Source of the DNA: Akkermansiaceae bacterium
GTDB taxonomy: Bacteria; Verrucomicrobiota; Verrucomicrobiia; Verrucomicrobiales; Akkermansiaceae
Assembly: GCA_903908495.1 (NCBI GenBank)
Contig: CAIVSK010000028.1
Location: forward strand, 1 to 64,000
Direction of reading: 5' to 3'
Length of the DNA: 64,000 nucleotides
Part shown: positions 7,711 to 29,785 of the stretch, piece after piece
Position numbering within the stretch: position 1 is the stretch's first letter
Layout: each line of letters starts with the position of its first letter
Made by a program: the position numbers and the translations under genes
The notes under the pieces: generated by a model
Seen by the model: only the letters and a program-made list of their open reading frames with translations
What the model was told of the DNA's origin: nothing
The model's database searches: none

Positions 7711-8409
7711 ATGGCAAACATCTTCCCCCGCTGGTCCAACCTGCTGCCCCTCAAGATCGCCTTCTGCGTGCTTTCGGTGGCGGGCGGGGTGACCGTCGCG
7801 TTCACCTATTACGCGACGCCCAAGGCCCAGGTGGTCGGCTACCAACCGTCCCAGCCGATTCCCTTTTCCCACAAGATCCACGTCGACCAAGTCGGCATGG
7901 ACTGCCGCTATTGCCACTCGTTTGTCGATGTGGCGGGCCATTCGAACGTGCCGACGGGCAACACGTGCTGGAATTGCCACCAGCACGTCCAGCGCGAAAG
8001 CCCTAAACTCGCGCCGCTGCGCAAGTCGATGGACCCGTCGTTTGCCGGCTACGATGGCAAGCCGATCGAGTGGGTGCGTATTCACAAGGCGCCGGATTTC
8101 GTGAAATTCAATCACTCGGCCCATCTCAACCGCGGCATTTCCTGCGCGAGCTGCCACGGCCGGATCGACCAGATGGAGGTGGTGTACCAGGATCAGAACC
8201 AGTCGATGGGTTGGTGTCTGGATTGCCACCGCGCGCCGGAAACCCAGCTGCGCCCGCTCGAAGAGGTCTATAACATGAAGTACGACGCGGCCCAATACCT
8301 CAAGGACCACCCGCAGCCCAATGTGAAGACCCCCGCCGAGTTCGGGCTCAAGCTCAAGGACCAATTCCGCGTCTCCCCCAAGACCACTTGTGCCACCTGT
8401 CACCATTGA
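7711..8409 (+). CDS. actA: Alternative complex III subunit A, pentaheme cytochrome c
   Basis: A 232-residue membrane-anchored multiheme cytochrome that hands electrons from the quinol-oxidising core of alternative complex III to a downstream carrier. There is one N-terminal helix (about residues 14-33) and five CxxCH sites, at 65-69, 86-90, 145-149, 169-173 and 227-231, the last almost at the C-terminus. Five hemes match the known ActA. The Met at 7711 was chosen because it directly precedes the membrane anchor; the longer reading adds a Cys/Phe-rich tail with no similarity to the family. It is the first gene of actABCDEF, with 48 bp before actB. Confidence 0.92.
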   Translation: MANIFPRWSNLLPLKIAFCVLSVAGGVTVAFTYYATPKAQVVGYQPSQPIPFSHKIHVDQVGMDCRYCHSFVDVAGHSNVPTGNTCWNCHQHVQRESPKLAPLRKSMDPSFAGYDGKPIEWVRIHKAPDFVKFNHSAHLNRGISCASCHGRIDQMEVVYQDQNQSMGWCLDCHRAPETQLRPLEEVYNMKYDAAQYLKDHPQPNVKTPAEFGLKLKDQFRVSPKTTCATCHH

Positions 8410-8457: not shown

Positions 8458-11850
<3,393 letters not shown>

Positions 11851-11892: not shown

Positions 11893-13362
<1,470 letters not shown>

Positions 13363-13425: not shown

Positions 13426-13980
13426 GTGAGCACGACCCGTCAACGAGTTTACGGCTACCTCGCCGAGTTCAAGAGCGCCTCCGCGCTCTACAAGGCGGCG
13501 GAACAAGTCCGCGACGCCGGCTTCAAACGCTGGGATTGCTATTCACCCTATCCGATCCATGGCCTCGACCAGGCGATGGGCCTCAAGCGCTCGGTGCTGC
13601 CGTGGTTTGTGTTTTTCGGCGGCATGACCGGCACGGCCACCGCCTTCACCCTCGCCTACGTCACTCAGGTGGTCATCTTTCCCACCGTGGTGCAGGGCAA
13701 GCCGGCCAACATCTTCACCATCCCGGCGTTTTTCCCCATCATGTTCGAGCTGACGATCCTGTTCTCCGGCTTCACCGTGCTCTTCGGCCTGCTGTCGTTG
13801 ATCCGCCTGCCGCGGCTCAACCACCCATTGTTCGCCAGCACCCAGTTCCTGCGCGCCACCGACGACGGGTTCTTCATCGCCATCGAGGCCCGCGACGTCA
13901 ATTTCAGCACCGCCGGCACCCGCGACATGCTGGCCCAAATCGGTGGTGCCAACATCGAACTCGTCGTCGAGGAAGATTGA
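13426..13980 (+). CDS. actD: Alternative complex III subunit D (DUF3341)
   Basis: A 184-residue membrane protein of the DUF3341 family: an N-terminal soluble ferredoxin-like part (VYGYLAEFKSASALYKAAEQ, DAGFKRWDCYSPYPIHGLD) and two transmembrane helices at about 58-80 and 96-120. ActD helps hold the membrane part of the complex together. It starts with GTG; no ATG gives the conserved N-terminus. It lies between actC and actE as in characterised clusters. Confidence 0.92.
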   Translation: MSTTRQRVYGYLAEFKSASALYKAAEQVRDAGFKRWDCYSPYPIHGLDQAMGLKRSVLPWFVFFGGMTGTATAFTLAYVTQVVIFPTVVQGKPANIFTIPAFFPIMFELTILFSGFTVLFGLLSLIRLPRLNHPLFASTQFLRATDDGFFIAIEARDVNFSTAGTRDMLAQIGGANIELVVEED

Positions 13981-14025: not shown

Positions 14026-14712
14026 ATGCGATACTTTTTCCTGGTTTATGCGATTGTCGCGGTGCTGGTGGTCGGCATCTTCGGCTTCCGCGGCGAGAAG
14101 TTTGCCAAGCCGCCGATCCGGATCTTTCCGGATATGCGCGAGCAGGATGTGCTGCGCGCCCAGAAGCCCGATGCGTTCTTTGCCAACGGCCAGGGCGGCC
14201 GCCAGCCGCTGGCGCAAACCCAGCCGCGCGGATTCAACGAGGATGGCCTGCGCGAACTTGGCGGCATCCCCGAATATGAGTTCGGCGGCGCCACCGGTTA
14301 CTATTACACCGGCCAGATCGGCGATTATTTCGGCAATGGCATGCCCGAGGAACTCCAACTCACCGCCGCCAACTCCACCGCCCTGATCAAGCGCGGCCAG
14401 GAGGTCTTCACCATCAATTGCTCCCTCTGCCACGGCCCCTCCGGCGATGGCCAGGGCATCACCACCACCTACGGCGTGCCGGTGGCCATCACCCCCATCG
14501 CCAACGGCAGGCTCAACCTCCACACCCAGGACCCGAACCCACCCGCAGGACGTATCTTCTATCCAGACGGCCGGGTGTTCGACACCATCACCAAGGGCAA
14601 GGGCAACATGGGTGCCTATGGACCCAACCTATCGGTCCGCGACCGCTGGGCCGTCGTCGCCTACCTCCACACCCTGCAAGCCGCCAAGGCCGGCCAGCCC
14701 ACACCGCAATAA
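14026..14712 (+). CDS. actE: Alternative complex III subunit E, monoheme cytochrome c
   Basis: A 228-residue membrane-anchored cytochrome c. One N-terminal helix (residues 4-20) is followed by a cytochrome domain with CSLCH at 132-136 and a likely Met ligand in KGNMGAYGPNLSVRD near 196. The C-terminal helix ERxxVAYLHTLQ form (RDRWAVVAYLHTLQ) is typical. It probably passes electrons out of the complex. It sits 45 bp after actD and just ahead of actF. Confidence 0.92.
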   Translation: MRYFFLVYAIVAVLVVGIFGFRGEKFAKPPIRIFPDMREQDVLRAQKPDAFFANGQGGRQPLAQTQPRGFNEDGLRELGGIPEYEFGGATGYYYTGQIGDYFGNGMPEELQLTAANSTALIKRGQEVFTINCSLCHGPSGDGQGITTTYGVPVAITPIANGRLNLHTQDPNPPAGRIFYPDGRVFDTITKGKGNMGAYGPNLSVRDRWAVVAYLHTLQAAKAGQPTPQ

Positions 14713-14734: not shown

Positions 14735-16072
14735 ATGGCCCACCACCACCACGTCACTTCCGCCGATCTCGCCATCCACGGCGACCACCTCGATGCCTCC
14801 TCGGTGTCCAAGGTCAAGTCGCTCGCCTTGGGCATCGCCGTCATCTTCACGCTTGTTAGCTTGTACCTGCTGTTTTTCGCCCCGGTGAAAGTGCGCGCGC
14901 CATTCGCCTATTCCTGGCTCTTCGCGTTCTATTTCTACCTCACGCTGTCCATCGGCGGCTGTTTTTGGACCTTGCTCCACAACGTCACCAACGCCAGTTG
15001 GGGCATCTCGGTGCGGCGCACCTTTGAGAACCTCGGCTCCACCTATCCGTGGATGTTCCTGTTCGGTTTGCCGCTGCTGTGCCCTGAAGTCCAGCAATAC
15101 CTCTACGAGTGGATGAACATCCATCGCGCAGCCCCCGCCACCATGATGATCAAGGATTACCTCAGCCACGAGGCCAGCCTGCTCTATCACAAATACTGGT
15201 TCATGAACATCCCGTTTTGGTACGCGCGGGTCGCCTTCTGGGGCATCGGGCTGAGCGTGGTCATCTACGGCCTGCGCAAGCTCTCCACCGACCAAGACAC
15301 CGATCCGAATCCCGGCATCGGCCGCCTGCTCAAGGCGCGCTTCCACTCGACGTACACGCTGGTCATCTTCGCCCTGACGATCACCTTCACCGGCTTTGAT
15401 TTCATGATGGGTCTGGACTACAAGTGGTTCTCCACCATGTGGGGCGTCTATTTGTTTGCCGGGTCCGCGCTCAACTCGATGGCTGTAATCGTGCTGGTGT
15501 GCACCTGGCTCAAGAGCAAAGGCCACCTCAAGCACGTGACCGGGCCGGAGCATTTCCACCTGATGGGCAAGCTGATGCTGGCGTTCACGGTGTTCTGGGC
15601 GTATGTCACGTTCTCGCAGTTTTTCCTTATTTGGTATTCCAACCAGACCGAGGAGACCGCCTATTTCCTCATCCGCAACACCGGCAATTGGAACATCGCC
15701 ATGATCACCCTGGTGTTCGGCCATTTTGTCGTGCCCTTCGTCATCCTGTTGCAGGCCTGGCTGAAGAAAAACCCCAAGGCACTCTCGGTGGTGGCCGTGT
15801 ACACCCTCTGCATGCACGTGCTCGACCACTACCTCATCACCATTCCCGAGCGCGGCATCTCGCTGGGCGGCGAGCACATGAGCCAGGGGCCCGCCTTCGC
15901 CGGTCTCGGGCCGATCCAGGTCTCCATCCCCGGCGCATTCTGGGGGGACATCTTCGCCTTCGTCACCATCGGTGCCGCCTTTCTGTTCTTCCTGCTGCGC
16001 GCCCTCGGCCAACACTCGCTCTATCCCAACCGCGACCCCCGCATCCTCGAGTCCGCCAATGTCTCCAATTGA
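14735..16072 (+). CDS. actF: Alternative complex III subunit F, NrfD-like membrane protein
   Basis: A 445-residue paralogue of ActC with about ten transmembrane helices (for example ALGIAVIFTLVSLYLLFFAP and TFTGFDFMMGLDYKWFSTMW). The start at MAHHHHVTSADL follows the actE stop by 22 bp; a longer in-frame reading overlaps actE and is not credible. The His-rich N-terminus is unusual and could bind metal, though it may be neutral. It completes the actABCDEF set; no actG is obvious. Confidence 0.92.
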   Translation: MAHHHHVTSADLAIHGDHLDASSVSKVKSLALGIAVIFTLVSLYLLFFAPVKVRAPFAYSWLFAFYFYLTLSIGGCFWTLLHNVTNASWGISVRRTFENLGSTYPWMFLFGLPLLCPEVQQYLYEWMNIHRAAPATMMIKDYLSHEASLLYHKYWFMNIPFWYARVAFWGIGLSVVIYGLRKLSTDQDTDPNPGIGRLLKARFHSTYTLVIFALTITFTGFDFMMGLDYKWFSTMWGVYLFAGSALNSMAVIVLVCTWLKSKGHLKHVTGPEHFHLMGKLMLAFTVFWAYVTFSQFFLIWYSNQTEETAYFLIRNTGNWNIAMITLVFGHFVVPFVILLQAWLKKNPKALSVVAVYTLCMHVLDHYLITIPERGISLGGEHMSQGPAFAGLGPIQVSIPGAFWGDIFAFVTIGAAFLFFLLRALGQHSLYPNRDPRILESANVSN

Positions 16073-16129: not shown

Positions 16130-16546
16130 ATGGACCCCACCCGCAACAACCCGGTCATCCGCTTCAACACCTTTTGGTGGGCCCTGTGGACCTTTCTCAT
16201 CTTCGGCGTGCTGCTCGCCGCGGTCATCGTCTTCAACCGCAAGCCGCCCACCAGCCTCGAAAGCGCCGCCGCAGTCGCCCGCTACGCCACCAAGGACAAG
16301 GTGACCGAGGCCCAGTCCGCCGCTCTTTCCGGCGCGGAAATTGACGCCGCCATCGCCAAGGTGGCAGCCACGCTCCCGTCTAGCAAACCGGCCGCGGTCG
16401 AGAAGACAGAGCAGGTGGTGCCCGGTTCGCCCACCGCGCTGAAGCTCGCCGCCGAGCCGGCCAGCGCGCCTGCCGCCAATGGAGCGCCGGCCGCCACGCC
16501 ACCTGCGCAACCCGCGACGCCTCCGGCGCCCCCCGCCAAACCCTGA
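16130..16546 (+). CDS. Small membrane protein between actF and the ccoN-like gene
   Basis: A 138-residue protein of unknown function. Residues 1-12 are polar, 13-36 form one membrane helix (TFWWALWTFLIFGVLLAAVI), and the rest is a soluble tail that turns into an Ala/Pro-rich, low-complexity C-terminus from about 85. No heme or metal motif is present. It is co-directional with, and tightly packed between, actF (57 bp) and the ccoN-like gene (29 bp), so it is likely an accessory or assembly subunit of this respiratory complex. The role is inferred from context only. Confidence 0.7.
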   Translation: MDPTRNNPVIRFNTFWWALWTFLIFGVLLAAVIVFNRKPPTSLESAAAVARYATKDKVTEAQSAALSGAEIDAAIAKVAATLPSSKPAAVEKTEQVVPGSPTALKLAAEPASAPAANGAPAATPPAQPATPPAPPAKP

Positions 16547-16575: not shown

Positions 16576-18045
16576 ATGTCATCCTCCCCTTCCGCCACCG
16601 CCCCATCGGACGCCCTGCTGCGAGCCGGCATCGACCGCTCGTTGCGTCATCCGGTGATGTTTTTCCTAACCAGCGGTGCCGCCTGGCTAGCGGTGTCGAT
16701 CCTGCTGGCAATCATTGCATCGATCAAGGTGCACTATCCGGAGTTCATGGATGATTGTCCCTGCATGAGCTACGGCCGGGTATTTCCGGCACATATCAAC
16801 ACACTCATTTACGGCTGGGGTTTCCAGGCGGCCTTCGGGGTGCTCATCTGGCTGATGGCGCGCATGTCGCGGCAGGAATGCCGCGCCGCGGGGACCATCC
16901 TCACTGCCGGGCACGTGTGGAACCTGGCCGTATTGTTAGGAACGGTGGGAATTCTCGGCGGCTCGGGCACGGGCATGGCGTGGATGGAATTCCCGAGGTT
17001 TGTTTGGCCGGGCCTGTTGTTGTGCTATTTCGCGATTGTGGTGTGGTCGTTCATTCAGTTCCGGGTGCGTGAAGGCGAGCGCTCGCACGTCGCGCAGTGG
17101 TATCTGTTGGCCGCCATGATCTGGTTTCCATGGATTTTCATCACCGCCAATGTGCTGCTGAATTGCACCAGCGGGCATCCGCTGATGGCCGCCGCGATCG
17201 ACGCCTGGTTCAAGTCCGCGCTGATGTTTTTGTTCTTTATTCCGCTCGCCCTGGGGACCGCGTATTATCTGGCACCCAAGCTCACCGGGCGGCCGATCCC
17301 CAGCGCCACCCTTGCCAAGTTGGGCTTTTGGACGCTGGCGGTAGTCGCGCCATGGGCCGGCATGCAGAAACTCGCCGGGGTGCCGCTGCCGGTGTTTTTG
17401 CCCTATCTGGGAGCTGCCGCCACCGTGCTGCTGGCCGTCCCGCTGGCCACTGCGGCCGTCAATATCCTGCGCACGATTTTCTCGTCAGAGGAGAAACTGC
17501 CCAAGAGCCCGGCGCTGCACTTCACCTTGGCGGGCCTGATGGGTGTGTTGTTGCTGGCGGTGGCCGCCATCGCGCTCAACCTGCCGGGGTCCTCGCTCAA
17601 GCTGACCCAGTTTTCCATCTCCGGTTACGGCTTTGAGATTCTGGCCATCTACGGGTGTTTCAGCTTCATGATGTTTGGTGCCGTGTATTTCATCGTGCCG
17701 CGCATCACCTGCCGCGAATGGATTTCCAGCCGCTTCATCAACATGCATTTCTTCTTCTCGGCCTACGGGATTGTCGCCATCGTTTTCGGTGCCCTGTTTG
17801 GCGGCTTCATCCAGGGCAGCGCCCAGGAAGCCTGGCTCCAACCGTGGGAAACGGTCACCGATGTGGTGCGGCCCTATGCCGCGGTGTCCACCTTCGCCTG
17901 GTGCGTCATCCTGTTTTCCAACATCTTCTTCTTCGCTCATCTCGCCATGATGTGGCTGGGCCTCGGCCGCCGCGGTCCCGCCCCCACCCTGATGGATTCG
18001 CCCGCCAACCTGGCCGTGCCCGCAGCCCCCCAGTCCGGCCACTGA
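16576..18045 (+). CDS. CcoN-like heme-copper oxidase homologue lacking the active-site ligands
   Basis: A 489-residue, roughly 12-helix protein clearly homologous to cbb3 oxidase subunit I: SYGRVFPAHINTLIYGWGF aligns with the first heme helix, and LAPKLTGRPIP, WAG and IVPRITCREW align with later segments. One low-spin heme ligand remains, His73. Compared with Pseudomonas stutzeri CcoN as I recall it, the Cu_B His becomes Ser214, the His-His pair becomes Gln264-Lys265, the cross-linked Tyr becomes Ala258, the heme b3 His becomes Phe353 and the second heme b His becomes Ile355. The frame is unbroken, so this is not a sequencing artefact. It cannot reduce oxygen by the known mechanism. ccoO- and ccoP-like cytochromes follow it. 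Confidence 0.88.
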   Translation: MSSSPSATAPSDALLRAGIDRSLRHPVMFFLTSGAAWLAVSILLAIIASIKVHYPEFMDDCPCMSYGRVFPAHINTLIYGWGFQAAFGVLIWLMARMSRQECRAAGTILTAGHVWNLAVLLGTVGILGGSGTGMAWMEFPRFVWPGLLLCYFAIVVWSFIQFRVREGERSHVAQWYLLAAMIWFPWIFITANVLLNCTSGHPLMAAAIDAWFKSALMFLFFIPLALGTAYYLAPKLTGRPIPSATLAKLGFWTLAVVAPWAGMQKLAGVPLPVFLPYLGAAATVLLAVPLATAAVNILRTIFSSEEKLPKSPALHFTLAGLMGVLLLAVAAIALNLPGSSLKLTQFSISGYGFEILAIYGCFSFMMFGAVYFIVPRITCREWISSRFINMHFFFSAYGIVAIVFGALFGGFIQGSAQEAWLQPWETVTDVVRPYAAVSTFAWCVILFSNIFFFAHLAMMWLGLGRRGPAPTLMDSPANLAVPAAPQSGH

Positions 18046-18095: not shown

Positions 18096-18812
18096 ATGTC
18101 CCTCCGCAATTTCATTCTCGGCCTGTCCGCCAGCTTTGGTTTCGCCTGGCTGTTTGTCGTCATTGTGCCCTTCATCAAGATGCGCAACCTCGAGCCCATC
18201 ACCCTGTCCAAGGACGCCGATGGCGCGACCGGGATTTTCTATCCGAAGCGCTCCGGCCGCATCGTCAACGGGGCCAAGGTGTATGCTGAAAACGGCTGCT
18301 ATCTGTGCCACACCCAGGTGGTGCGGCCCACCTACGCCGGCAACGATCTGTACCGTCCGGATTGGGGCGGCCTGGCCAAGGATCCGGAGCGCGGCGACAC
18401 CCGGCGGGAAACCAATGCCTACGACTTCGAGGGCGAGACCTTTGCGCAGATCGGCAGCACCCGCATGGGGCCCGATCTATCCAATCTAACGCGGCGGCTG
18501 GAGGCGGCGGTGGCGGCCAAGGGCAGCGGCGATCCGGCCGCGATGCTCTATGCGCATCTTTACGATCCGCGGCACAACCCCGAACTCCGCAAGTCCACCT
18601 GTCCGTCCTATCGCTATCTGTTCGACAGGCGTGAAATCAAGGGCCAGCCATCCGCCGATGCCCTGCCGTTTGGCGGCGATATGGCCACCGAGCTGGTGCC
18701 CAGCTCCGATGCCAAGGCGTTGGTGTCTTATCTGCTTGCCATGAAAAAAGACCAACCAGCTCCGGCCGCGTTGAATTTCGCCCCGATTGACCCGAAGGCC
18801 GCCGGCCGTTGA
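18096..18812 (+). CDS. ccoO: CcoO-like monoheme cytochrome c
   Basis: A 238-residue membrane-anchored cytochrome of the FixO/CcoO family, normally cbb3 oxidase subunit II. One N-terminal helix (about 7-27) is followed by CYLCHTQ at 68-72 and the axial Met124 in GSTRMGPDLSN, both canonical. The family's ENGCYLCHTQVVRPT block is intact. The start at MSLRNFIL follows the ccoN-like stop by about 50 bp. Unlike its partner CcoN, this protein keeps all redox residues, so electron transfer through it is still possible. Confidence 0.9.
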   Translation: MSLRNFILGLSASFGFAWLFVVIVPFIKMRNLEPITLSKDADGATGIFYPKRSGRIVNGAKVYAENGCYLCHTQVVRPTYAGNDLYRPDWGGLAKDPERGDTRRETNAYDFEGETFAQIGSTRMGPDLSNLTRRLEAAVAAKGSGDPAAMLYAHLYDPRHNPELRKSTCPSYRYLFDRREIKGQPSADALPFGGDMATELVPSSDAKALVSYLLAMKKDQPAPAALNFAPIDPKAAGR

Positions 18813-18846: not shown

Positions 18847-19677
18847 ATGTCCGCGCCCTCTCACCCGACCGATCCTAACGACTCCGCTGCTGCGACCGCC
18901 GCCAACCTTGATATTGCCGCGGCGGCGCGTGAGAAGCAGATTCCGGAGACCGGCAGCCAGCCGATCTCGTTGTGGACCACTGTAATTTGCGGTGCGGTGC
19001 TGATTTTTGCGGGATTGATCTTTGGCTATGGAGGCAACCGCTTGTCCTATGACTCGCTGTTCCGCGACGGCTATGTCCGCAGTTCGCCGCCCGGCAGTGT
19101 CGCCACGCCGCTGCCGCCCAAGCCCGCGCTGGAGGCCTACATGGCTCGCGGCAAGAAGGTGTTTGAGGCCAAATGCATCACCTGCCACGGACCTGAGGCC
19201 AAGGGCAACGGCACCACCTATCCGTCATTGGTGGGCAGCGCCTGGGCCAATGGCGAGACCGAGCGTTTCTCGATGATCGTTCTCAACGGTCTGCAAGGTC
19301 CCACCAGCAATGGCAAGGTCTATGGCGTGATGACCCCGCAAGGCATCGGCATGACCCCGGAGGAACTCGCCGGCATCATGACCTATGTGCGCAACCACTT
19401 CGGCAACACCAAGGGCGATGTCATTACCACCGAGATGGCCAAAGCCGCCATGAAGATCTCCGCCGCCCGCAAGAACGCCGGCCAATCCGTCACCGCCGAG
19501 GAACTCACCGCCGATCACCTCAAAGCCCTCGAAGGCAAGCCGGTTGCCGCCACCACCCTGGTCGATCCGCTGTCGCTCGAACCGGTCCCTAACGCCGCAG
19601 CAGCGGCCCCGGCGGCCCCCGCCCCAACTGCCCCGGTCACCCCGGCCCCGGCTGTGTCGGCCCCCAAAGCCCCCTGA
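18847..19677 (+). CDS. CcoP-like monoheme cytochrome c
   Basis: A 276-residue protein: a polar N-terminus, one helix at about 42-61, a single cytochrome c domain with CITCHGPEAKGNG at 110-114 and later GIGMTPEELAGIMTYVRNHFG, then an Ala/Pro-rich tail from about 245. Canonical CcoP has two hemes; this has one, so the symbol is left empty. A likely axial Met lies in GVMTPQGIGM. It ends the respiratory cluster. The Met at 18847 was preferred because the extension upstream lies inside ccoO. Confidence 0.85.
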   Translation: MSAPSHPTDPNDSAAATAANLDIAAAAREKQIPETGSQPISLWTTVICGAVLIFAGLIFGYGGNRLSYDSLFRDGYVRSSPPGSVATPLPPKPALEAYMARGKKVFEAKCITCHGPEAKGNGTTYPSLVGSAWANGETERFSMIVLNGLQGPTSNGKVYGVMTPQGIGMTPEELAGIMTYVRNHFGNTKGDVITTEMAKAAMKISAARKNAGQSVTAEELTADHLKALEGKPVAATTLVDPLSLEPVPNAAAAAPAAPAPTAPVTPAPAVSAPKAP

Positions 19678-20311
19678 AATCAGAGGCTAAGAAACGGCGC
19701 TGCAACCCCTTCCATTATCCTTTTTGGCACCAGGACCCGACGGGCCGGGTGTGGAACGAGTAACTGCCGCATGCTGATATGAACGCTGTTGCCTAACTAT
19801 TCTGCGGGCTGGGTTTCAGCACGCCGGCGGGGAGACCTGAAGCGCTCAAGTCCGGTCTGGCCGAAAACCCGGTACTCCCGTCCGACGCTCGCCAACGACG
19901 CAGCGCATGCACCATGGCATGGTTCGCCGCAGTGATCTCCGCCCCGACTCCATTGAAAACGGATGCCGGCCGAAAATCACAAAAAGCAATATCGTCTGGG
20001 CCATTTTCTCGTCTCAGGATCTTCCCATTTCCGGAAAGTTTGACAGCCTCGCAGAACCTCTGCCACAGCCAATACCCTGTATAGCATCCTGGTATCCTTG
20101 CGTGCCTCTGGACGCAGTCGTTACAGCTCCGAAGACGGGACGCTCAGCGTTTCGCAAATCCGACAGTCAATTCGCAGAATAGCCATTGTGCGACCTAGCG
20201 GGATGTTGTCTCATGGCTTGGCAGAAGTCGGCTTCGATCCTGGGCACGGACTTGTGCGCGGCTCTCCGGGAGGGCTCCGGCATCCCGCCCTCCCTTCGAC
20301 TCATCACTGCC
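19678..20311. other. Intergenic region, 634 bp, no gene recognised
   Basis: This region separates the respiratory cluster from the secreted-protein run. Short open frames occur (for example 19907-20182, plus strand) but have no signal peptide, motif or suitable spacing. A TTGACA at 20039-20044 has no -10 at proper distance. Base composition is less GC-rich than the flanks around 19970-20090, so the promoter of the next gene probably lies there. No terminator hairpin with a T-run was found after the cytochrome gene. Confidence 0.4.
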
Positions 20312-23300
20312 ATGAAGCACCCTGACAAATTCATTGCGGCTGTAACTGCGGGGCTGGCCGTGGCATGCTGTCTGGCGGTGGCTGCGGTCGGCGACGAGGA
20401 CAAGCCATGGCGGGACAACGAGCGCAAATTCAAGAGCGATGACCCGACGCTGAATTTCCGCCGCTCGGAGCATTTCCGCATCGCGTGGGGCCAGGGGGCA
20501 GGTGCCAACAAGGAAGAAAACGCGGATTTTGGCGGAGTGACAGAGCAGTTGGTGCAGGGCAATCTTCAAATGTTGGAGAAAGTGTGGCACCGCTATCACG
20601 ACCCGCAGCCGGGCGGGCTGGGTTTTCACAATCCAGGAGTTTCATCCAACGCCAAGGACCAGGATGGCAATTGCTATCGGGCCAATCTGACCCTCAACAA
20701 CACCGGCATCTGGGCCGGTGGGGCGTGGGGGTCCTGCGACGAGTGGGGCCTGCCGATGTTTGCCCTGCCACCATCGTATCTGGCCTATGATCCGCCGTCG
20801 GGCGCCACGCCGCATGAATATGGCCATACGGTACTCATCAACGCGGGTGGCTTCAACGACACGCCATACGACGGCATGTGGCACGAGGCCACCGCCAACT
20901 GGCTGATGTTGCAATTCAATAACAGCTACCCCGGCCCCGGCGGGATCGGTACCCAACCGTTTCTATCGTTGCCGCACGGCCGCAATTATTATGATGCCTG
21001 GTTGATCTGGGAGCATCTCCGCGAGACGCCGGGTTATGGCAGCGCTTTCGTCAACAAGATGTGGACCGAGGCCCGTGGCAACAAGAACAAGGGTGGGGAA
21101 TATATCTTCGATGCCATGGTCCGCCTCGCCCCCAGCGGCAATCCGGACCCGTATAATGCAATCAAGGATGCCATCGGCCACATGGCGGCGCGCAGCGTGA
21201 CGTGGGATTACCAACGCCAGGTGTTTTTTCAGAAACTCAGCCCGCGGACGATGGACCCGTTCACCGAGATGTATCGGCGGGCCTATACCGAATTGACCCG
21301 CCGCGCGGCGGACTCCAACTGGTATCGCGTCCCCTTTGCCCACGCGCCGATGCAGGGTGGCTACAACGTCGTGCCCATCGCCCTGCCTGGCAAGACCGGC
21401 CAGTCCTACCCTGTATCTATCAATTTCAAGCCGCTGTGGGACGCAACCCGCCACGCCGATTGGCGCGCCACCCTGGTAGCCGTCAACGACGCCGGCGAGG
21501 CGCGCTACAGCACGATGTGGAATGCCGGCGTGAATTCCATCACTCTATCGACCGACGAGAACCGCTTGTTTCTGGTGGTGGCAGCCACGCCGGACTTCAT
21601 GCCATTTGAAGGGTTCCAACATCCGCTGCTGTCCGACCTGCCGTTGCAGCCGCAGGCCTACGAGGTCGCCTTTGTCAACACCAAGGCCGACGCCTATCAA
21701 AGCAAGCCCTCAGTCCCCGCGGGAGTCGCCGGCAAACCCCACGCCAACGGCGGCGGATTCGTGGCCGCCACCGCAAAAGTGGCAGCCAGCGCCTATGTGG
21801 GGCCCGACGCCATGGTGTTGGGCAGCGCGCAAGTGACAGGCAAGGCCCGGATCGAGGATTTTGCGGTGGTGATGGACCGCGCAGAGGTGAGCGAAACCGC
21901 GGTGCTCAGCGGCCATGCCCTGGTGCGGGAAACCGCCCAGGTAAGCGGCCACGGCAAGGTGCGGGACTGGGCGACGGTGCAAGGCGGGTGGAAGATTTCT
22001 GGCAACGGACGGGCGCTGGAGCGCGCCTATCTGGCGGATCGCGGTGAGTTGACGGACCACGCCACCATCAAGGGCGCGGCATCGGACAACGGCGGCGCGA
22101 AGGTCGGCGGGCATGCCATCAAGGAGGGAGATTGCGCCAACAGCGCCAACGTCGATCACCAAACGCTGATGTGCTGGGTGTGGGGAATCGATCAAAAATA
22201 CGCCGATGACCGGCCGGACAACGAGAGCCTGTATTGCAACTATCAATTCAACCGCAGCAGCCCGATCTATGCGCTCGACCGCTTCGGCGTGATGCATGGC
22301 TATCTGATGGGCTCGCCGCAAACCCTCACCCTCGATGACACACAACTGCGCGGTGCCCTGCAACTCGACGGCCAGGGCCAACACGTCGAGTTGAAGCGCG
22401 ATGTGGCGGACTTTGCCGACACCACCATCTCGTTGTGGCTCAACTGGGCCGGGGGATCGGCCGGCCAGCGCATCCTGCATTTCGGCGATGGCGGGAAGAA
22501 ATATGCCTATCTCACGCCGAAGGATGCCGCCACCGGCAAGTTGAAGTTTGTCATCAGCACCGGCGGCCCGCAGAGTGAACAGGCGCTGGTGGGTCCAGCG
22601 CCGTTGCCAAAGGGGACTTGGACGCATGTGGCCATCACCCTCAGCGGCGATACTGCCACGCTCTATGTTGATGGCAAGGCCGTCGCCAAGAACCCCGCCA
22701 TGACGCTCAAACCGGACATGGTGCTAGGACCTAACACGCTTGCAGGAAACGATTGCATGTTTCTGGGCCGCGGGCCGCAGGGCGGGTATTACCTCGGCTG
22801 GCTAACTGACTTTCGGGTCTATGTGCAGGCGCAGGAGGCGGCCGTGATCGCCACTCTGGCCGGCCAAATCCACAATCGCTCAGCCAAGGGCACAGCAGCA
22901 GCCAAAGACACCGCGCCGACGAAAACATCCAGAGCAGCGTTTCTGATGCCGCCCACGCCGCTGGGTGACAGCGCCGTGGTGATGTCCGCGCCCAAAGCCG
23001 CCGCTGACGCAGCCGGGGTCGAGTACTCGTTTATCGGATCCGGCGCAGGCGGCCACGCAAGCGGCTGGATCTCCAGCAACCGCTGGACCGACTGCCGGCT
23101 CGAACCCGGTAAAACATATGCCTATATCTTCAAACTGCGCGACCAACAGGGCAACGAAACACCGCCGTCCCCACCGCAGCGGGTGACTCTGCCGCCGTTG
23201 ACTGAAGTGCTGGAATGCGCTTTTGAAAGCCCGCCCAAGGGGGTGAGCCCGTCAGCCATCCGCATGACTGTGGCGAAGCCGGAAGGCACCAGCGGCGCGG

Positions 23301-24049
23301 TGGAATACCAATTTGCCAGCATTGGCGGCAAGCCGGGTGCCTGGCAATCCAGCCGGACCTGGACCGACAGCGGGCTCACCGAGGGGAGCAAGCACAGCTA
23401 TTCAGTGCGAATGCGCGATGCCGCCGGCACGTTTGGCAAGCCCTCGCCGGTAGCGGCGGCGGTGGTGCGCGATGACACCCCGCCCGCCCGCTATGCCATC
23501 GGCGAGTGGCAGACGTTGCCCTTCGCCACCGTGGAAAACTCCGTATCCATGAAAGCCATGTCGGTGACCGGAGCCAATGAGTGCCCGAAAATCGAAGCCG
23601 ACGCGGTCGAGTATTCCTTCCATTGCGTGGCGGGTGGCGGCCCGGACAGCGGCTGGATTGCCACGCCGGCGTGGCAGACGCCGGCCTTGCCTAACGGATT
23701 GTACCAGTACGCGTTCAAGCTGCGCGACAAGTCGCCGCAACTCAACGAAACACCGTGGTCCAGCAACGAGACGGCGGTGGTTTCCGCACTGACGGGCTAT
23801 CACGACTGTCCTGTTAGTCAACTCGCACGCCAGCCCGAAGGCGCGTTGGTGTCATTTCAAGGCAAGGTGACCAAAGTCGACACCGCCTCGTACACGGTCA
23901 CAGCTGGTGGCACCAGCATCAAGGTGGTGCCCCGCAGCGTCGCGGCTGCCACCGATGCCAAACTCGCCAACGCCAGCGTCTCGGTTCAAGGCTGCCTGTG
24001 GATCCGCAACAAGGAGAAATGCGTCGTGTGGGCCGAGTTGCGCAAATGA
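20312..24049 (+). CDS. Secreted multidomain protein: HEXXH (DUF6055-like), beta-helix, LamG and Ig-like domains
   Basis: A 1245-residue exported protein; MKHPDKFIAAVTAG starts a signal peptide of about 28 residues. The N-terminal domain (40-400) resembles DUF6055/avirulence-type proteins and has HEYGH at 168-172 with a downstream WHEATANW that could give a third zinc ligand. From about 485 to 610 are hexapeptide repeats of a left-handed beta helix (VxGxAxV form). A LamG/concanavalin-like domain spans about 680-855. Two or three Ig/FN3-like modules ending in (W)TDxGL(T)...YSVRMRD follow, and the C-terminus resembles an OB-fold. A zinc-dependent peptidase acting on a cell-wall or glycoprotein substrate is plausible but not shown. 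It starts a run of secreted genes; the next begins 27 bp later. Confidence 0.75.
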   Translation: MKHPDKFIAAVTAGLAVACCLAVAAVGDEDKPWRDNERKFKSDDPTLNFRRSEHFRIAWGQGAGANKEENADFGGVTEQLVQGNLQMLEKVWHRYHDPQPGGLGFHNPGVSSNAKDQDGNCYRANLTLNNTGIWAGGAWGSCDEWGLPMFALPPSYLAYDPPSGATPHEYGHTVLINAGGFNDTPYDGMWHEATANWLMLQFNNSYPGPGGIGTQPFLSLPHGRNYYDAWLIWEHLRETPGYGSAFVNKMWTEARGNKNKGGEYIFDAMVRLAPSGNPDPYNAIKDAIGHMAARSVTWDYQRQVFFQKLSPRTMDPFTEMYRRAYTELTRRAADSNWYRVPFAHAPMQGGYNVVPIALPGKTGQSYPVSINFKPLWDATRHADWRATLVAVNDAGEARYSTMWNAGVNSITLSTDENRLFLVVAATPDFMPFEGFQHPLLSDLPLQPQAYEVAFVNTKADAYQSKPSVPAGVAGKPHANGGGFVAATAKVAASAYVGPDAMVLGSAQVTGKARIEDFAVVMDRAEVSETAVLSGHALVRETAQVSGHGKVRDWATVQGGWKISGNGRALERAYLADRGELTDHATIKGAASDNGGAKVGGHAIKEGDCANSANVDHQTLMCWVWGIDQKYADDRPDNESLYCNYQFNRSSPIYALDRFGVMHGYLMGSPQTLTLDDTQLRGALQLDGQGQHVELKRDVADFADTTISLWLNWAGGSAGQRILHFGDGGKKYAYLTPKDAATGKLKFVISTGGPQSEQALVGPAPLPKGTWTHVAITLSGDTATLYVDGKAVAKNPAMTLKPDMVLGPNTLAGNDCMFLGRGPQGGYYLGWLTDFRVYVQAQEAAVIATLAGQIHNRSAKGTAAAKDTAPTKTSRAAFLMPPTPLGDSAVVMSAPKAAADAAGVEYSFIGSGAGGHASGWISSNRWTDCRLEPGKTYAYIFKLRDQQGNETPPSPPQRVTLPPLTEVLECAFESPPKGVSPSAIRMTVAKPEGTSGAVEYQFASIGGKPGAWQSSRTWTDSGLTEGSKHSYSVRMRDAAGTFGKPSPVAAAVVRDDTPPARYAIGEWQTLPFATVENSVSMKAMSVTGANECPKIEADAVEYSFHCVAGGGPDSGWIATPAWQTPALPNGLYQYAFKLRDKSPQLNETPWSSNETAVVSALTGYHDCPVSQLARQPEGALVSFQGKVTKVDTASYTVTAGGTSIKVVPRSVAAATDAKLANASVSVQGCLWIRNKEKCVVWAELRK

Positions 24050-24076
24050 CGGCATCTGGCACCGTCAATCCAACCT

Positions 24077-26857
24077 ATGAAGCGCTCCTCATTGTTCATC
24101 CCGGCTGTTGCCCTTGGCGTCGGGCTGCTGCTAGGCGGCAGCCATGCGGCCGCCGAACCGAGCGGCGTGGCTTGTCGCCATGGAAATTTCGGGGTGTGCT
24201 TTGAGCGGGGCGCCATCACCAGTCTCAAACGCGTCGGTGACACGCAAGCAACCGATTATCTCCGTGCCGGGGGACGCTTCGGCGATCTAACAGTCCGCTG
24301 GCGCGCGGACCATGCCCCTTGGCAAACCATCGCCACCCAGGACCTGCCGGTAAATGCCGCCGTCTCGCTGGTCAACCCCCCGGAGAATTTCGCCCACGGC
24401 ACCCAGTGGAGTCCGCCAACCGGACCGCGGATCGAGAACCGCTTCACATTCGAGGGCGATGCGCTGGTCTGGAGCATGACGCTGAGCAACCCGGGCAATC
24501 ACCCGCTGGAAATCGGTGACCTGGCCTTTGCATGCCCGATGAACACCAAGTATGAATGGGATCGGGACGTCACCTATCATCAGCGGGTCATCCGCCATTC
24601 CCTGATCTCGGGCCACGGCTCTTTCATGTTCTGGACGCGCTGCGACGCTGAGGGGCCCTACCTGCTCATGACGCCTCTCCCCAACACAAGTCTGGAATAT
24701 TTTGACGCACCGCCGTCGCCCGGCCAACTTACGGACAACTTCACCGCCTACATCCACTCCGCCGCGCAGAGCGACGTTCTGCGGGAGCACGCCACCCACT
24801 GGAGGCAAGCCAACACCAGCGCCACCCTCGCCCCGGCAGGACAACCCGGCAACTCTGTGACATATGGCTTCCGCCTGAGCTGGGTGCAGGATTACGCCGC
24901 GCTGCGCCAACGCATCGTCGACGACGGGTTGTTCGACGTGCGCGTCGCGCCCGGCATGACGCTGCCAGTTGATCTAACGGCCAGAATCGCGATCAAGTCC
25001 CACTGCCGGATTCTGGCGTTGGATGCCGAATTTCCCGAAGCCACCGACGTGCGTGACCTCGGCACTCGTGACGACGGCACGCGTCTCTATGAGGTTGGAT
25101 TTCGCAAACTCGGGGAGAACCGACTCACGCTGCGGGCCGAGGACGGGCGTCACATGGTGCTCGAGTTTTTCTCCACCGAACCGTTGGAGACACTGATCCA
25201 CAAGCGCGCGGCTTTCCTCAGCCGCTCACAGCACCGCGACCCGGCGAAATGGTACAATGGCCTGATCAGTGACTGGAACATGGCGGACGGCGTGCTGGTT
25301 AGCCCGGACAATCTCGACACCATTCCCGAGTCCCGCCGCTATGCAGTGAGTTGTGACGATCCGGGCCTGTGCAAGGCTCCGTTTCTAGCCGCAAAGAACG
25401 TTGAATATCCAGACCGCGGCGAGATCGAAGCGCTGGAGTATTACGTCGAGCACTTCCTGTGGGGCGGACTGCAAATGACGGACGCCGAGAGCCATCCGTT
25501 TGGTCTCTATGGGATTGATGACTGGAAACGCAATCGCGAGAGTCCGGATCCGGGCACCAAGGGCCGGACCCACCTGTGGCGGATATACGACTACCCGCAC
25601 GTTGTGATGCTCTATCTGCAACTCCACCGCATTGCCCGCGAGCACCCGGATATTCCCACCCGGATCAGCGCGGCCGAATATCTGCGGCGTGCTCACGGCA
25701 CCGCCATGGCGTTGTTTACCTATCCGATGGAGTTGGCGCGGTGGTCGCCCTGCGAGACGGGGCTTTACAACGAACTCGTCATCGAGGAGGTGATTCAGGA
25801 ATTAGAGCGTGCCGGCCAAACCCGGCAAGCCGGGGAATTGCGCCAGCACTGGCAGCGCAAGGTTGCGTTCTTCGTCAGCGGCAAGGCCAATCTCTTTGCC
25901 TCAGAGTATCCGTTCGACACCACCGGCTTCGAGTCGACGCATGCCTTCGCGCGTTATGTCTTGCGCGGCGAGGATCAGGCTGGTGGATCGGCGGCGGGGC
26001 GAGTAGACGCCTTGCGCTTCGCCCACCAGCAGGCGGCGCTCAATGTCGGCTGCCGCGGCTGGCTGGAAACCGCGTATTACCTTTACGGCAGCGATTATCG
26101 GGGGGGCGGCAACGGTCACTATACCTTGAGCTATATGTCACAAATGGGCGGCTGGTCGCTGTTGGACTACACGTTACACGATGCCGTTGACCCGCAGCGT
26201 CTGTTGCCGCTCGCCTATGGCTCGATCCTGAGTTCCTGGGCGCTGCTGAACTCGGGCACTGCCCAATCCAACTACGGCTACTGGTATCCCGGCGTGGCCA
26301 ATGACGGCGGCGCGAGCGGCGGCTTCGAGCCCGCTCCCTATGGCAAAACCTGGCTCGGCCAGCCGCACCATCGCGGCGCGTGGTCATACGGCTGTGAGAT
26401 CGACCTGGGCTTCAGCGGCGCGTTGCGAGCTGCGGCCACGATCTTTGCTGATGATCCGCTGTTCGGACCCATCGCCTATGGCGGCACCTGCCTGCGCGAT
26501 GACCGGAGTTGGCAGGTCTGGTGCAAGGACGGCGTGCGGCGCCGCTTCCACATCCTGCGGAAGGACCAGCGCGTCCATCTCCAGTTGGATCGCGATCACA
26601 TCGCAGCCGATGTGCCGCTGCGCTTCGATGACGCATTGTCGACACTCAGTTTCACTCTCGAATCCCCGGACCCGCAACCTCGTGCCACCACCCTGCGCCT
26701 GGCAGGACTGCCAACCGGCGACTACACCATCGCCCTCGACGGGCAGGCAGCGGGCCTGTGCCACCAGCAAGGGGACGTCGAGGCACGGGTGGAGTTGAAG
26801 CCGACCCGGTCACGGCACGTCGTGACCATCGCGATTACAAGATCTCAAACCAAGTGA
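24077..26857 (+). CDS. Secreted protein, DUF5695-like, possible carbohydrate-active enzyme
   Basis: A 926-residue protein with a signal peptide (MKRSSLFIPAVALGVGLLLGGSH). The first 300 residues are beta-rich and resemble the N-terminal sandwich of glycosidases. The 390-760 part is helical with many Trp, Tyr and Asp residues (GLISDWNMADG, HFLWGGLQMTD, SYMSQMGGWSLLDYT), as in (alpha/alpha)6 barrels. The C-terminus is a small beta domain. The best family recalled is DUF5695, whose chemistry I cannot state. Neighbouring GH127-like genes 9 and 16 bp apart imply one transcript and a joint role in glycan breakdown. Confidence 0.6.
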   Translation: MKRSSLFIPAVALGVGLLLGGSHAAAEPSGVACRHGNFGVCFERGAITSLKRVGDTQATDYLRAGGRFGDLTVRWRADHAPWQTIATQDLPVNAAVSLVNPPENFAHGTQWSPPTGPRIENRFTFEGDALVWSMTLSNPGNHPLEIGDLAFACPMNTKYEWDRDVTYHQRVIRHSLISGHGSFMFWTRCDAEGPYLLMTPLPNTSLEYFDAPPSPGQLTDNFTAYIHSAAQSDVLREHATHWRQANTSATLAPAGQPGNSVTYGFRLSWVQDYAALRQRIVDDGLFDVRVAPGMTLPVDLTARIAIKSHCRILALDAEFPEATDVRDLGTRDDGTRLYEVGFRKLGENRLTLRAEDGRHMVLEFFSTEPLETLIHKRAAFLSRSQHRDPAKWYNGLISDWNMADGVLVSPDNLDTIPESRRYAVSCDDPGLCKAPFLAAKNVEYPDRGEIEALEYYVEHFLWGGLQMTDAESHPFGLYGIDDWKRNRESPDPGTKGRTHLWRIYDYPHVVMLYLQLHRIAREHPDIPTRISAAEYLRRAHGTAMALFTYPMELARWSPCETGLYNELVIEEVIQELERAGQTRQAGELRQHWQRKVAFFVSGKANLFASEYPFDTTGFESTHAFARYVLRGEDQAGGSAAGRVDALRFAHQQAALNVGCRGWLETAYYLYGSDYRGGGNGHYTLSYMSQMGGWSLLDYTLHDAVDPQRLLPLAYGSILSSWALLNSGTAQSNYGYWYPGVANDGGASGGFEPAPYGKTWLGQPHHRGAWSYGCEIDLGFSGALRAAATIFADDPLFGPIAYGGTCLRDDRSWQVWCKDGVRRRFHILRKDQRVHLQLDRDHIAADVPLRFDDALSTLSFTLESPDPQPRATTLRLAGLPTGDYTIALDGQAAGLCHQQGDVEARVELKPTRSRHVVTIAITRSQTK

Positions 26858-26866
26858 CAATCTAAC

Positions 26867-29770
26867 ATGAAGACATACCTAACGCAAATAACAGGCTTCG
26901 CCGCCATTGTGGTGTCGATGGGCAACATAAGTGGAGCGGAACCGGTAGTGAAGGCCGTCGAGCGGCCCGACACCAGCCAGCCGCGCAACGCGTATTATCC
27001 CGGCAATCGCGAACCGCTGCTGCCCAGCCCACTGGTGAGCCTGCCGTTTGGCAGCATCAAGCCACAGGGCTGGTTGCGGACCCAGTTGGAACTCGAGCGC
27101 GATGGGTTCACCGGCCATCTCACCGAGATCAGCGGGTTTTGCAATCCGGAGAATAACGCGTGGCTCAACAAGGATGGAATAGGCAACAACGGCTGGGAAG
27201 AGGTGCCATATTGGTTCCGCGGATTCGCAGCGCTGGCCTATGTGCTGGGCGACAAGGAACTGGTGAAACAGGCGCAACCGTGGATCGAGAACATGATCGC
27301 CAGCCAAAATGAGTTTGGTTATTTCGGCACCCAGGCCAACCTGTTTGCGCCGATCCACCCGCCGGTGCCCGCCGAGTTGCTGAGCACCCCGGATGGCAAG
27401 CCGGGATTGCTCGGCGAGTATTTCGCGGACGTCGACTTGAAGGATCGCAAGGCGATCCGCGTCGATCCCATCATCGATTTCGACTGGGCCGAACTGCCTC
27501 CGATGGAGGGCATGCCCAACAAGCAATGGAGCGCGCGCTGGACCGGGTTTATCACGGTGCAGAAGACGGCGGACTACACGTTTTCGGCCTGTTCCGACGA
27601 CGGGGCCAGGCTGTGGGTGAACAACGAAGCGCTGATCGACAACTGGAAATTCCAAGCGCCGATCACGGTGGCCGCCACCAAGCCCATCCACTTGGAAGCT
27701 GGCAGGAAATATCCACTCAAGTTCGAGTACCTGCAATTGGCTGGCGGGGCCGAGGTCCGCCTGAGCTGGAAGATGCCCGGAGCGGTTTACAAGGCGGGCA
27801 CGCTCGCTCCAGATTTCATGCCTAACATGAGCATGCTCTTCGCGCTGCGTTCCTACTACGAGTATTCCGGCGACAAGCGCATCATTGATTTGATGACGCG
27901 CTATTTCGAGTGGCAGCTGAGCGTGCCGGACAACAAGTTTTTTGCGGGCGGCTGGCAGTTTCCGCGCAATGGAGACAACATGGACAGCGTCTATTGGCTC
28001 TATAACATCACCGGCGATAAGAAGTTGCTGGATCTCACGGCCAAGCTGATGCGCACCGGTGCGCCATGGACCAACGGCAAGGTGGATGGCGGTCACAATG
28101 TAGATTACTCGCAGGGTTTCCGCAAGCCGGGACAATTCTATGTGCAAAGCAAGGATCCCAAACACCTGGCGGAGGCCTATGGCAACTACGACTCAATGCA
28201 TGACATCTACGGCCAGGTGCCGGGTGGCATGTTTGGCGGCGATGAATTTGCCCGCCCCGGCTACACCGATCCGCAGAACGCGATCGAGACCTGTGGCTCG
28301 GTGGACATGATGCTGTCACAGGAGATCCTGCTGCGCATCACCGGGGACCTGACCTGGGCCGACCGCTGTGAGAATATCGCTTTCAACACCCTGCCCGCCT
28401 CGTTCACGCCGGACCTCAAAGCGCTGCGCTACTTGACGTCCCCCAACCAGGTCAACTCCGACAAGCGCAGCAAGTATCCGATTCTGGCCGACGCCGGCGA
28501 CATGCAGGCGATGGATCCCTATAACCATCGTTGCTGCCAGCATAACTCCGGCATGGGCTGGCCGTATTTCGCCCAGAACTTGTGGCAGGCCACCCCCGGC
28601 AACGGCCTCTGCGCCGTGATGTTCGCGCCTAACACCGTGAGTGCCAAGGTCGGTGACGGCACGCCGGTGAGCATCGTCGAAGACACCCACTATCCGTTCG
28701 ATGGCACCGTCAATCTCGCATTCGCCACGCCCAAGGCGGTGCAATTCCCGCTCTACGTCCGCATCCCCGGTTGGTGTGAGGCACCCGTGATTACGCTCAA
28801 CGGCAAGCCCGTCAAGGTGGAGGCCAAGCCGAAGTCACTGGTGATGATCGATCGAGTCTGGGCCAATGGCGACAAGCTCGCCATCCAGTTTCCGATGGAC
28901 GTCAAGGTCAAGACCTGGGCGAAGCAGAAGAACGCGGTGTCGGTCGATCGCGGCCCGCTGACGTTTTCGGTGAAGATTGCTGAGAAATACGTGCCCTATC
29001 GGACAGAAGAGCATCGGAAGTGGGCGGCCTGGGAAATTCTGGCAGGCAGTCCGTGGAATTACGGCCTGGTCATCGCCCAGGGCGATCCGGCCAAGTCATT
29101 CAAGGTGGTTACCAAAACATGGCCCGCGGACGACCAGCCATTCAAGTGGGACCAGGCACCGGTCGAGTTGCTGGCACAGGCGAAGAAGATTCCTAACTGG
29201 ACCGAGAATTACTGGGGCACCATCGACGCCCTGCAAGCGAGCCCGATCAAGAGCAGCGCCGCGGCCGAGACGATTGCGATGATTCCGATGGGTGCGGGCC
29301 GCTTGCGGGTATCCCAATTGCCGCGGATTGGCGACGGCCCGGAGGCCAAGGAATGGGCAGCGTTCCAGGAGCCCATCGCGTCCGCCACCCACCCGGCCAC
29401 GCCGATGTCGGCACTGTGGGACGGCCTGGTACCCAAGGCATCCAATGACAAAACGGTGCCGCATTTCTCATGGTGGCCGCAGTCCAACAGCACCGAATAT
29501 GTCATCTGGAAATTTGACAAGCCCAAGACGGTCTCGAAGTCCGAGGTGTATTGGTTCATCGACGAGGACGCCACCACCACCCCGGTGGCATGGAAACTAT
29601 ACTACAAGATGGGCGACAAGTGGCTGGAATGCAAGAACACAACGCCCTACGGCTTGGAGAAAGACAAATTCAACGTTGTTAACTTCGCGCCGGTGACGAC
29701 GAGCGCCATCAAGCTGGAAGCCAAGCTCGGCGGCCGCTCGGGCGGAATTTCAGAGTGGAAAGTCAATTAG
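26867..29770 (+). CDS. GH127-like beta-L-arabinofuranosidase with inserted PA14 domain
   Basis: A 967-residue secreted protein (signal about 1-24). The N-terminal part of an (alpha/alpha)6 barrel (90-165) is interrupted by a PA14 carbohydrate-binding domain at about 180-312 (GLLGEYFADVDL ... LSWKMPG), and the barrel resumes with MSMLFALRSYYEYSGD. The GH127 zinc/nucleophile set is present: Glu474-Thr-Cys476 and Cys556-Cys557 (HRCCQHN). In the family the zinc-bound Cys of the CC pair is the nucleophile. The C-terminus (about 870-967) looks like a discoidin/F5-8-type module. Substrate specificity within GH127 and its relatives is not resolved. Confidence 0.8.
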   Translation: MKTYLTQITGFAAIVVSMGNISGAEPVVKAVERPDTSQPRNAYYPGNREPLLPSPLVSLPFGSIKPQGWLRTQLELERDGFTGHLTEISGFCNPENNAWLNKDGIGNNGWEEVPYWFRGFAALAYVLGDKELVKQAQPWIENMIASQNEFGYFGTQANLFAPIHPPVPAELLSTPDGKPGLLGEYFADVDLKDRKAIRVDPIIDFDWAELPPMEGMPNKQWSARWTGFITVQKTADYTFSACSDDGARLWVNNEALIDNWKFQAPITVAATKPIHLEAGRKYPLKFEYLQLAGGAEVRLSWKMPGAVYKAGTLAPDFMPNMSMLFALRSYYEYSGDKRIIDLMTRYFEWQLSVPDNKFFAGGWQFPRNGDNMDSVYWLYNITGDKKLLDLTAKLMRTGAPWTNGKVDGGHNVDYSQGFRKPGQFYVQSKDPKHLAEAYGNYDSMHDIYGQVPGGMFGGDEFARPGYTDPQNAIETCGSVDMMLSQEILLRITGDLTWADRCENIAFNTLPASFTPDLKALRYLTSPNQVNSDKRSKYPILADAGDMQAMDPYNHRCCQHNSGMGWPYFAQNLWQATPGNGLCAVMFAPNTVSAKVGDGTPVSIVEDTHYPFDGTVNLAFATPKAVQFPLYVRIPGWCEAPVITLNGKPVKVEAKPKSLVMIDRVWANGDKLAIQFPMDVKVKTWAKQKNAVSVDRGPLTFSVKIAEKYVPYRTEEHRKWAAWEILAGSPWNYGLVIAQGDPAKSFKVVTKTWPADDQPFKWDQAPVELLAQAKKIPNWTENYWGTIDALQASPIKSSAAAETIAMIPMGAGRLRVSQLPRIGDGPEAKEWAAFQEPIASATHPATPMSALWDGLVPKASNDKTVPHFSWWPQSNSTEYVIWKFDKPKTVSKSEVYWFIDEDATTTPVAWKLYYKMGDKWLECKNTTPYGLEKDKFNVVNFAPVTTSAIKLEAKLGGRSGGISEWKVN

Positions 29771-29785
29771 AAATCCCATAGAACC

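Follow-up and report, generated by a model that had tools for sequence, protein, structure and literature searches.

A CcoN-like protein lacking oxygen-reduction ligands, encoded beside alternative complex III in Verrucomicrobiota

Alternative complex III (ACIII) forms a supercomplex with a caa3- or aa3-type oxidase in Rhodothermus marinus and Flavobacterium johnsoniae (PMC5928083, PMC8552683). In both, actABCDEF is followed by the aa3 genes, as it is in many relatives of the locus described here. In these organisms a cytochrome c domain, carried by either subunit II or ActA, links ACIII to CuA (PMC5928083). A cbb3 oxidase has been listed beside ACIII in verrucomicrobial methanotrophs (PMC8498564), and an ACIII-adjacent cbb3 oxidase has been tied to high oxygen affinity (PMC6688271). 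The gene arrangement in those reports (verrucomicrobial methanotrophs and Opitutaceae) is the same as the one described here, and it was called a C-type oxidase there.

The window is the whole stretch of 64,000 nucleotides that was analyzed, from an Akkermansiaceae bacterium. It contains a complete actABCDEF set, with ActA to ActE assigned by profile and ActF by position. The set is followed by genes of the CcoNOP type. They resemble cbb3-type CcoNOP in the sequence and fold of CcoN and in the order of the CcoO-like and CcoP-like cytochromes. They differ in that the residues for Cu_B, heme b3, the cross-link, and the second heme b ligand are missing, that CcoP has one heme motif, and that the genes lie directly after ACIII. 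We call such a CcoN disarmed. In contrast to R. marinus and F. johnsoniae, clusters with a disarmed CcoN place the CcoNOP-type genes between the ACIII and aa3 genes. Their subunit II lacks a fused cytochrome c, and their ActA carries five hemes rather than six. No earlier description of a disarmed ACIII-linked CcoN was found in the freely readable papers searched. The genes of the cluster are as follows.

7711..8409, plus strand: ActA, pentaheme cytochrome c (Cytochrome_C7/QrcA-like matches; putative start MANIFPRW)
8458..11850, plus strand: ActB, molybdoenzyme-like plus Fe-S domain (QrcC/DsrO/Fer4 and QrcB matches)
11893..13362, plus strand: ActC, NrfD-type quinol-binding membrane subunit (Pfam NrfD, 85.9 bits)
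13426..13980, plus strand: ActD (Pfam ActD, 203 bits)
14026..14712, plus strand: ActE, monoheme cytochrome c (Pfam Cytochrome_CBB3; one CxxCH)
14735..16072, plus strand: ActF (no Pfam match; assigned by position and conservation in the act operons of relatives; putative start MAHHHHVT)
16130..16546, plus strand: 138-residue transmembrane protein with a Pro/Ala-rich tail, a short form of a membrane-anchored cytochrome c
16576..18045, plus strand: disarmed CcoN with the fold of C-family oxidase subunit I (sequence, ligand columns, and predicted model)
18096..18812, plus strand: CcoO-like monoheme cytochrome c (Pfam FixO; putative start MSLRNF)
18847..19677, plus strand: CcoP-like cytochrome c with one heme motif (Pfam Cytochrom_C; putative start MSAPSHPT)

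The CcoN-like protein and its neighbors

The open reading frame at 16576-18045 (plus strand) is uninterrupted and encodes a membrane protein of 489 residues. It matches COX1/CcoN over its full length (Pfam COX1, 142.8 bits) and scores 87.5 bits against NCBIfam ccoN, which has a cut-off of 583. The top sequence match in the PDB was CcoN 3mk7 (E 5e-20). The COX1 and 3mk7 matches bear out the preliminary description of this DNA, which had aligned the protein along its whole length with cbb3 oxidase subunit I. An AlphaFold2 model was built from 15 relatives (pLDDT 78.5, pTM 0.83). The closest solved structure to this predicted model was CcoN (Foldseek, E 9e-17). The model matched 3mk7 over 443 residues at 2.7 Å with a VIA Z of 42.3, which indicates a CcoN-type 12-helix fold, and it was nearer to CcoN (Z about 42) than to NorB (Z 38.7).

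Ligand positions were read from a sequence alignment with L001, the genome's own canonical cbb3 CcoN. The Cu_B ligand H234 is replaced by S214, and H284-H285 is replaced by Q264-K265. The cross-link residue Y278 corresponds to A258, the heme b3 ligand H372 to F353, and the heme b ligand H374 to I355. The sole ligand retained is the other heme b histidine (H87, here H73). These are the substitutions named in the preliminary description; the alignment reproduced every one, and 51 homologues agree. The window protein thus has neither the Cu_B His triad nor the heme b3 His of C-family oxygen reductases (S214, Q264, K265, F353). Alanine 258, found in 51/51, stands where intact relatives have the cross-linked tyrosine of helix VII. 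Of the low-spin heme b histidine pair, H73 alone is retained, and position 355 is Ile. The Fe_B His ligands of nitric oxide reductase (NorB) are also absent, the same His positions being substituted. The residues and the predicted model indicate that the CcoN fold is preserved and that oxygen chemistry is lost.

A scan of genome contigs with one protein query, which reaches close relatives only, retrieved 50 loci. Every one was from Verrucomicrobiota. A258, Q264, and H73 are invariant (51/51 homologues), S214 and K265 occur in 50/51, F353 in 48/51, and I355 in 44/51. A sequencing quirk, assembly error, or frameshift is ruled out because the substitutions are common to 51 homologues. His113, His391, and His455 are also conserved in the window's family. 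The disarmed CcoN has more than 100 invariant columns, and its reading frame is open at all loci. Its dN/dS against the nearest relatives was 0.08 to 0.16. Several further close disarmed pairs gave 0.03 to 0.10, two more distant pairs gave 0.28 and 0.33, and values were mostly 0.03 to 0.19 overall. The close-pair values resemble those of active homologues and of the partner genes.

Where loci had enough flanking sequence, the order was ActA-B-C-D-E-F, small transmembrane protein, CcoN-like, CcoO-like, and CcoP-like. It was conserved at every complete locus. Two loci of family f2 (L057 and L058) encode ActE-ActF-CcoNOP-aa3 and have no ActABCD in about 11.5 kb upstream; the act operon is split there. 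A promoter scan gave nothing useful. Farther downstream, at 20186-32890 of the window, genes match DUF6055, DUF5695, and, in two cases, GH127 beta-L-arabinofuranosidase-type proteins. These are genes for polysaccharide breakdown with no tie to respiration.

ActA has five CxxCH motifs in every relative that has ActA. The CcoO-like protein has one CxxCH in 49/49 close relatives. The CcoP-like protein of the window also has one (canonical CcoP has two), and each of the two proteins has one whether the cluster is intact or disarmed. CcoP had no CxxCH in 1/51 Akkermansiaceae assignments. The earlier statement that the partners keep their hemes holds for one motif each, not for the canonical pair of CcoP. 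The 138-residue protein, which the preliminary description had named for complex prediction, is a heme-less remnant by comparison with full-length relatives. These are about 250 to 266 residues long with one CxxCH and a Pfam Cytochrom_C match (e.g., L053, 10687-11481). The transmembrane stalk remains, and most of the window's clade, which also has no aa3 genes, no longer has the heme domain. Two loci depart from this pattern. At L017, the heme domain of the small cytochrome is lost and aa3 is kept. At L046, the heme domain is kept and there is no aa3 within 10 kb.

Intact and disarmed relatives

Of 388 Verrucomicrobiota genomes searched with a profile, 122 gave a match, canonical cbb3 counted in, and 80 regions were examined. 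ACIII followed by CcoNOP is a class-wide arrangement. Among 73 aligned members, 23 have fully intact ligand columns (H-H-Y-H-H-H-H), including the helix VII tyrosine of C-family oxidases. The other members (50/73) are disarmed, with differing residue sets. The window's family has H-S-A-Q-K-F-I. Family f4 has S-E-S-S-H-F-V. Family f5 has Q-Q-G-R-H-Q-Q, A-H-S-S-R-R-W, and others. Family f6 (L062 and L063) has H-N-S-Q-R-Y-H, in which the oxygen site is lost and both low-spin heme b ligands (H73 and H355) are kept. It may be an intermediate that still carries heme b. His73 is kept in f2, f6, and the window's order. Nearly all f5 members and the disarmed members of f4, f9, f11, and f15 lack it, as do most disarmed lineages beyond the window's order.

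In two small genomes (G001 and G146), no heme-copper oxidase was detected other than the intact ACIII-linked CcoN, which suggests that intact members probably function as oxidases. A distant intact clade (L118, L119, L121, L122, and L131) was found in other classes of the phylum. Its CcoN is preceded by a large multiheme cytochrome c open reading frame with three Cytochrome_CBB3 stretches, and Ser replaces His at column 345. The intact CcoN cluster L065 is followed by genes for aa3 subunits II and I, giving two oxidases in one cluster. This may be the state before disarming.

The tree of ActB plus ActC contained 64 rows and 1478 columns. On it, intact or disarmed status takes nine changes, eight of them forced by starred branches. 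The tree of ActF plus CcoO, the direct neighbors of CcoN, gave eight changes, seven of them forced. With irreversible loss assumed, the two trees give 9 to 11 losses. The metal-binding residues were lost about ten separate times. The preliminary description had not foreseen intact relatives in the same cluster type or repeated disarming.

Two other histories were weighed. A single ancient disarming is ruled out by the AU test on the flanking genes: a single disarmed group on ActF plus CcoO lowers lnL by 918 (p-AU 5e-35). This holds although CcoN's own tree, with ligand columns removed, forces only three changes. Disarmed rows are long-branched in that tree, and it is compatible with one clade for f5 (p 0.10) and for f3 (p 0.38). 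Later transfer of an intact CcoN into disarmed clusters is not favored because the near (ActF plus CcoO) and more distant (ActB plus ActC) trees have similar counts.

The rate of CcoN relative to ActBC had a median of 3.0 to 3.7 in intact-disarmed pairs versus 1.0 in intact pairs. Disarming is followed by a roughly threefold rise in the evolutionary rate of CcoN, which is still under purifying selection.

Oxidases that accompany the cluster

Genes for an aa3 oxidase lie directly downstream in f1, f2, f4, and f15, including most Akkermansiaceae/Verrucomicrobiaceae. The preliminary description had missed that many disarmed clusters run straight into them. Where fully covered, the adjacent subunit II has a CuA C...C..H motif and no fused cytochrome c. 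The disarmed clusters of f5, f3, and f9 have no adjacent aa3. No aa3 genes were found in the available downstream sequence of the window (W), L004 to L008, L020, L036, L045, and L046. G000 and the sister genomes of the window's clade contain only a canonical fused cbb3 oxidase and the disarmed CcoN. An assembly gap is unlikely to explain the missing aa3, as the sister genomes, several of them at least 95% complete, have the same two only. The window's own genome encodes its canonical cbb3 oxidase on contig C291. It also encodes one cytochrome bd and two NrfD-family proteins, one of which is the ActC of this operon. No bc1 cytochrome b was found in it.

Five f4 genomes encode two to four PmoA/AmoA-family genes each and were taken as verrucomicrobial methanotrophs for that reason. 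Their ACIII-adjacent CcoN has lost all catalytic ligands but one histidine column. The remaining heme-copper proteins of these genomes are of the aa3, ba3, and NorB-like types, and no canonical cbb3 was found in the five. CcoN is thus disarmed in five PmoA-bearing genomes, in contrast to the claims of PMC8498564 and PMC6688271. Judged by its residues, the published cbb3 assignment is not supported in the five f4 genomes examined and needs revising.

Proposed role of the disarmed subunit

We lean toward an active ancestor of the ACIII-linked CcoN that was disarmed repeatedly and then became a scaffold seating CcoO and CcoP as the electron outlet of ACIII. The ancestral, class-wide unit would have been ACIII with an active C-family oxidase (CcoNOP), probably as one quinol-to-oxygen assembly. 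In roughly ten lineages, that of the window among them, the presence of other oxidases may have freed CcoN from the need for an active site. Its ligands to Cu_B, heme b3, and heme b would then have disappeared, with selection preserving the 12-helix fold. The disarmed CcoN would be a membrane scaffold, poor in cofactors, on which CcoO and CcoP are seated at ACIII. Electrons would pass from menaquinol through ActB/ActA/ActE to CcoP/CcoO and then to an acceptor. In many relatives, the acceptor may be CuA in the aa3 oxidase encoded next to the cluster. The window's clade lacks aa3, and there the canonical cbb3 oxidase or a soluble carrier may take this part. With neither a cytochrome c domain on subunit II nor a sixth heme in ActA, the cluster leaves CcoO/CcoP and the small membrane cytochrome as candidates for the ACIII-CuA link.

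Synteny in every complete locus, low dN/dS, and the retained hemes of CcoO and CcoP agree with the earlier proposal of a selected role tied to ACIII without oxygen chemistry. Counted against the scaffold are the three forced changes of CcoN's own tree, the lack of adjacent aa3 in the f5, f3, and f9 disarmed clusters and in the window's clade, the adjacent aa3 of the intact cluster L065, and the retention of His73 across the window's order. A role only in docking aa3 is rejected as universal because the disarmed CcoN is still under selection in the window's clade, and other clusters also have no adjacent aa3. The chances appear about even that this is a new respiratory complex, in which a disarmed oxidase subunit, a state repeatedly reached, is a permanent cofactor-free scaffold of ACIII with CcoO/CcoP as the outlet.

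The disarmed CcoN could instead serve solely to assemble or stabilize CcoO/CcoP or the adjacent aa3, outside mature ACIII. The gene adjacency that is seen would suit such a factor. It is nevertheless unlikely, as the low dN/dS persists in the window's clade after aa3 loss and the complete 12-helix fold is retained. A redox or proton-path role without oxygen, through low-spin heme b or proton conduction, would fit the invariant His73 of the window's family (kept also in f2 and f6), both heme b ligands of f6, and the conserved His113, 391, and 455. His355 has become Ile/Val/Leu in the window's family, and the wide loss of His73 in f5, f4, f9, f11, and f15 likewise makes this role distinctly unlikely. 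The electron relay through CcoN itself that was first suggested is not supported, because the last heme b ligand is gone from most of the disarmed lineages beyond the window's order. The replacement residues might form a new metal or substrate site for other chemistry, since the window's family shows almost no variation at Gln264-Lys265, Ser214, and Gln345. The replacements vary by lineage (QK, RH, SR, SH, and others), where a shared new active site predicts otherwise, and we regard this as highly improbable. A decaying pseudogene or operon bystander would suit the threefold faster rate, but the open frame and synteny at all loci, the invariant columns, and the low dN/dS rule out a pseudogene and leave this reading a negligible chance.

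Under the scaffold reading, genes that are often annotated as a cbb3 oxygen reductase probably specify a structural component of a complex that transfers electrons from quinol to cytochrome. Subunit I of heme-copper oxidases is normally taken as a sign of oxygen or NO reduction. Because a large, conserved branch appears to keep the fold without the chemistry, claims of oxygen respiration made from Verrucomicrobiota genomes need checks at the residue level. About ten losses at one gene position, together with intact relatives, provide a natural experiment on the noncatalytic role of an oxidase in ACIII.

The ActB1 domain of ACIII is homologous to the catalytic subunit of molybdoenzymes (PMC5928083). 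It is likewise an enzyme-derived subunit within the same complex. ActB1 is not known to carry a molybdenum cofactor. It differs in having another fold and a single older event, whereas CcoN disarming was repeated and intact relatives survive. Given this precedent, CcoN may be a second former enzyme that ACIII has absorbed for a structural purpose.
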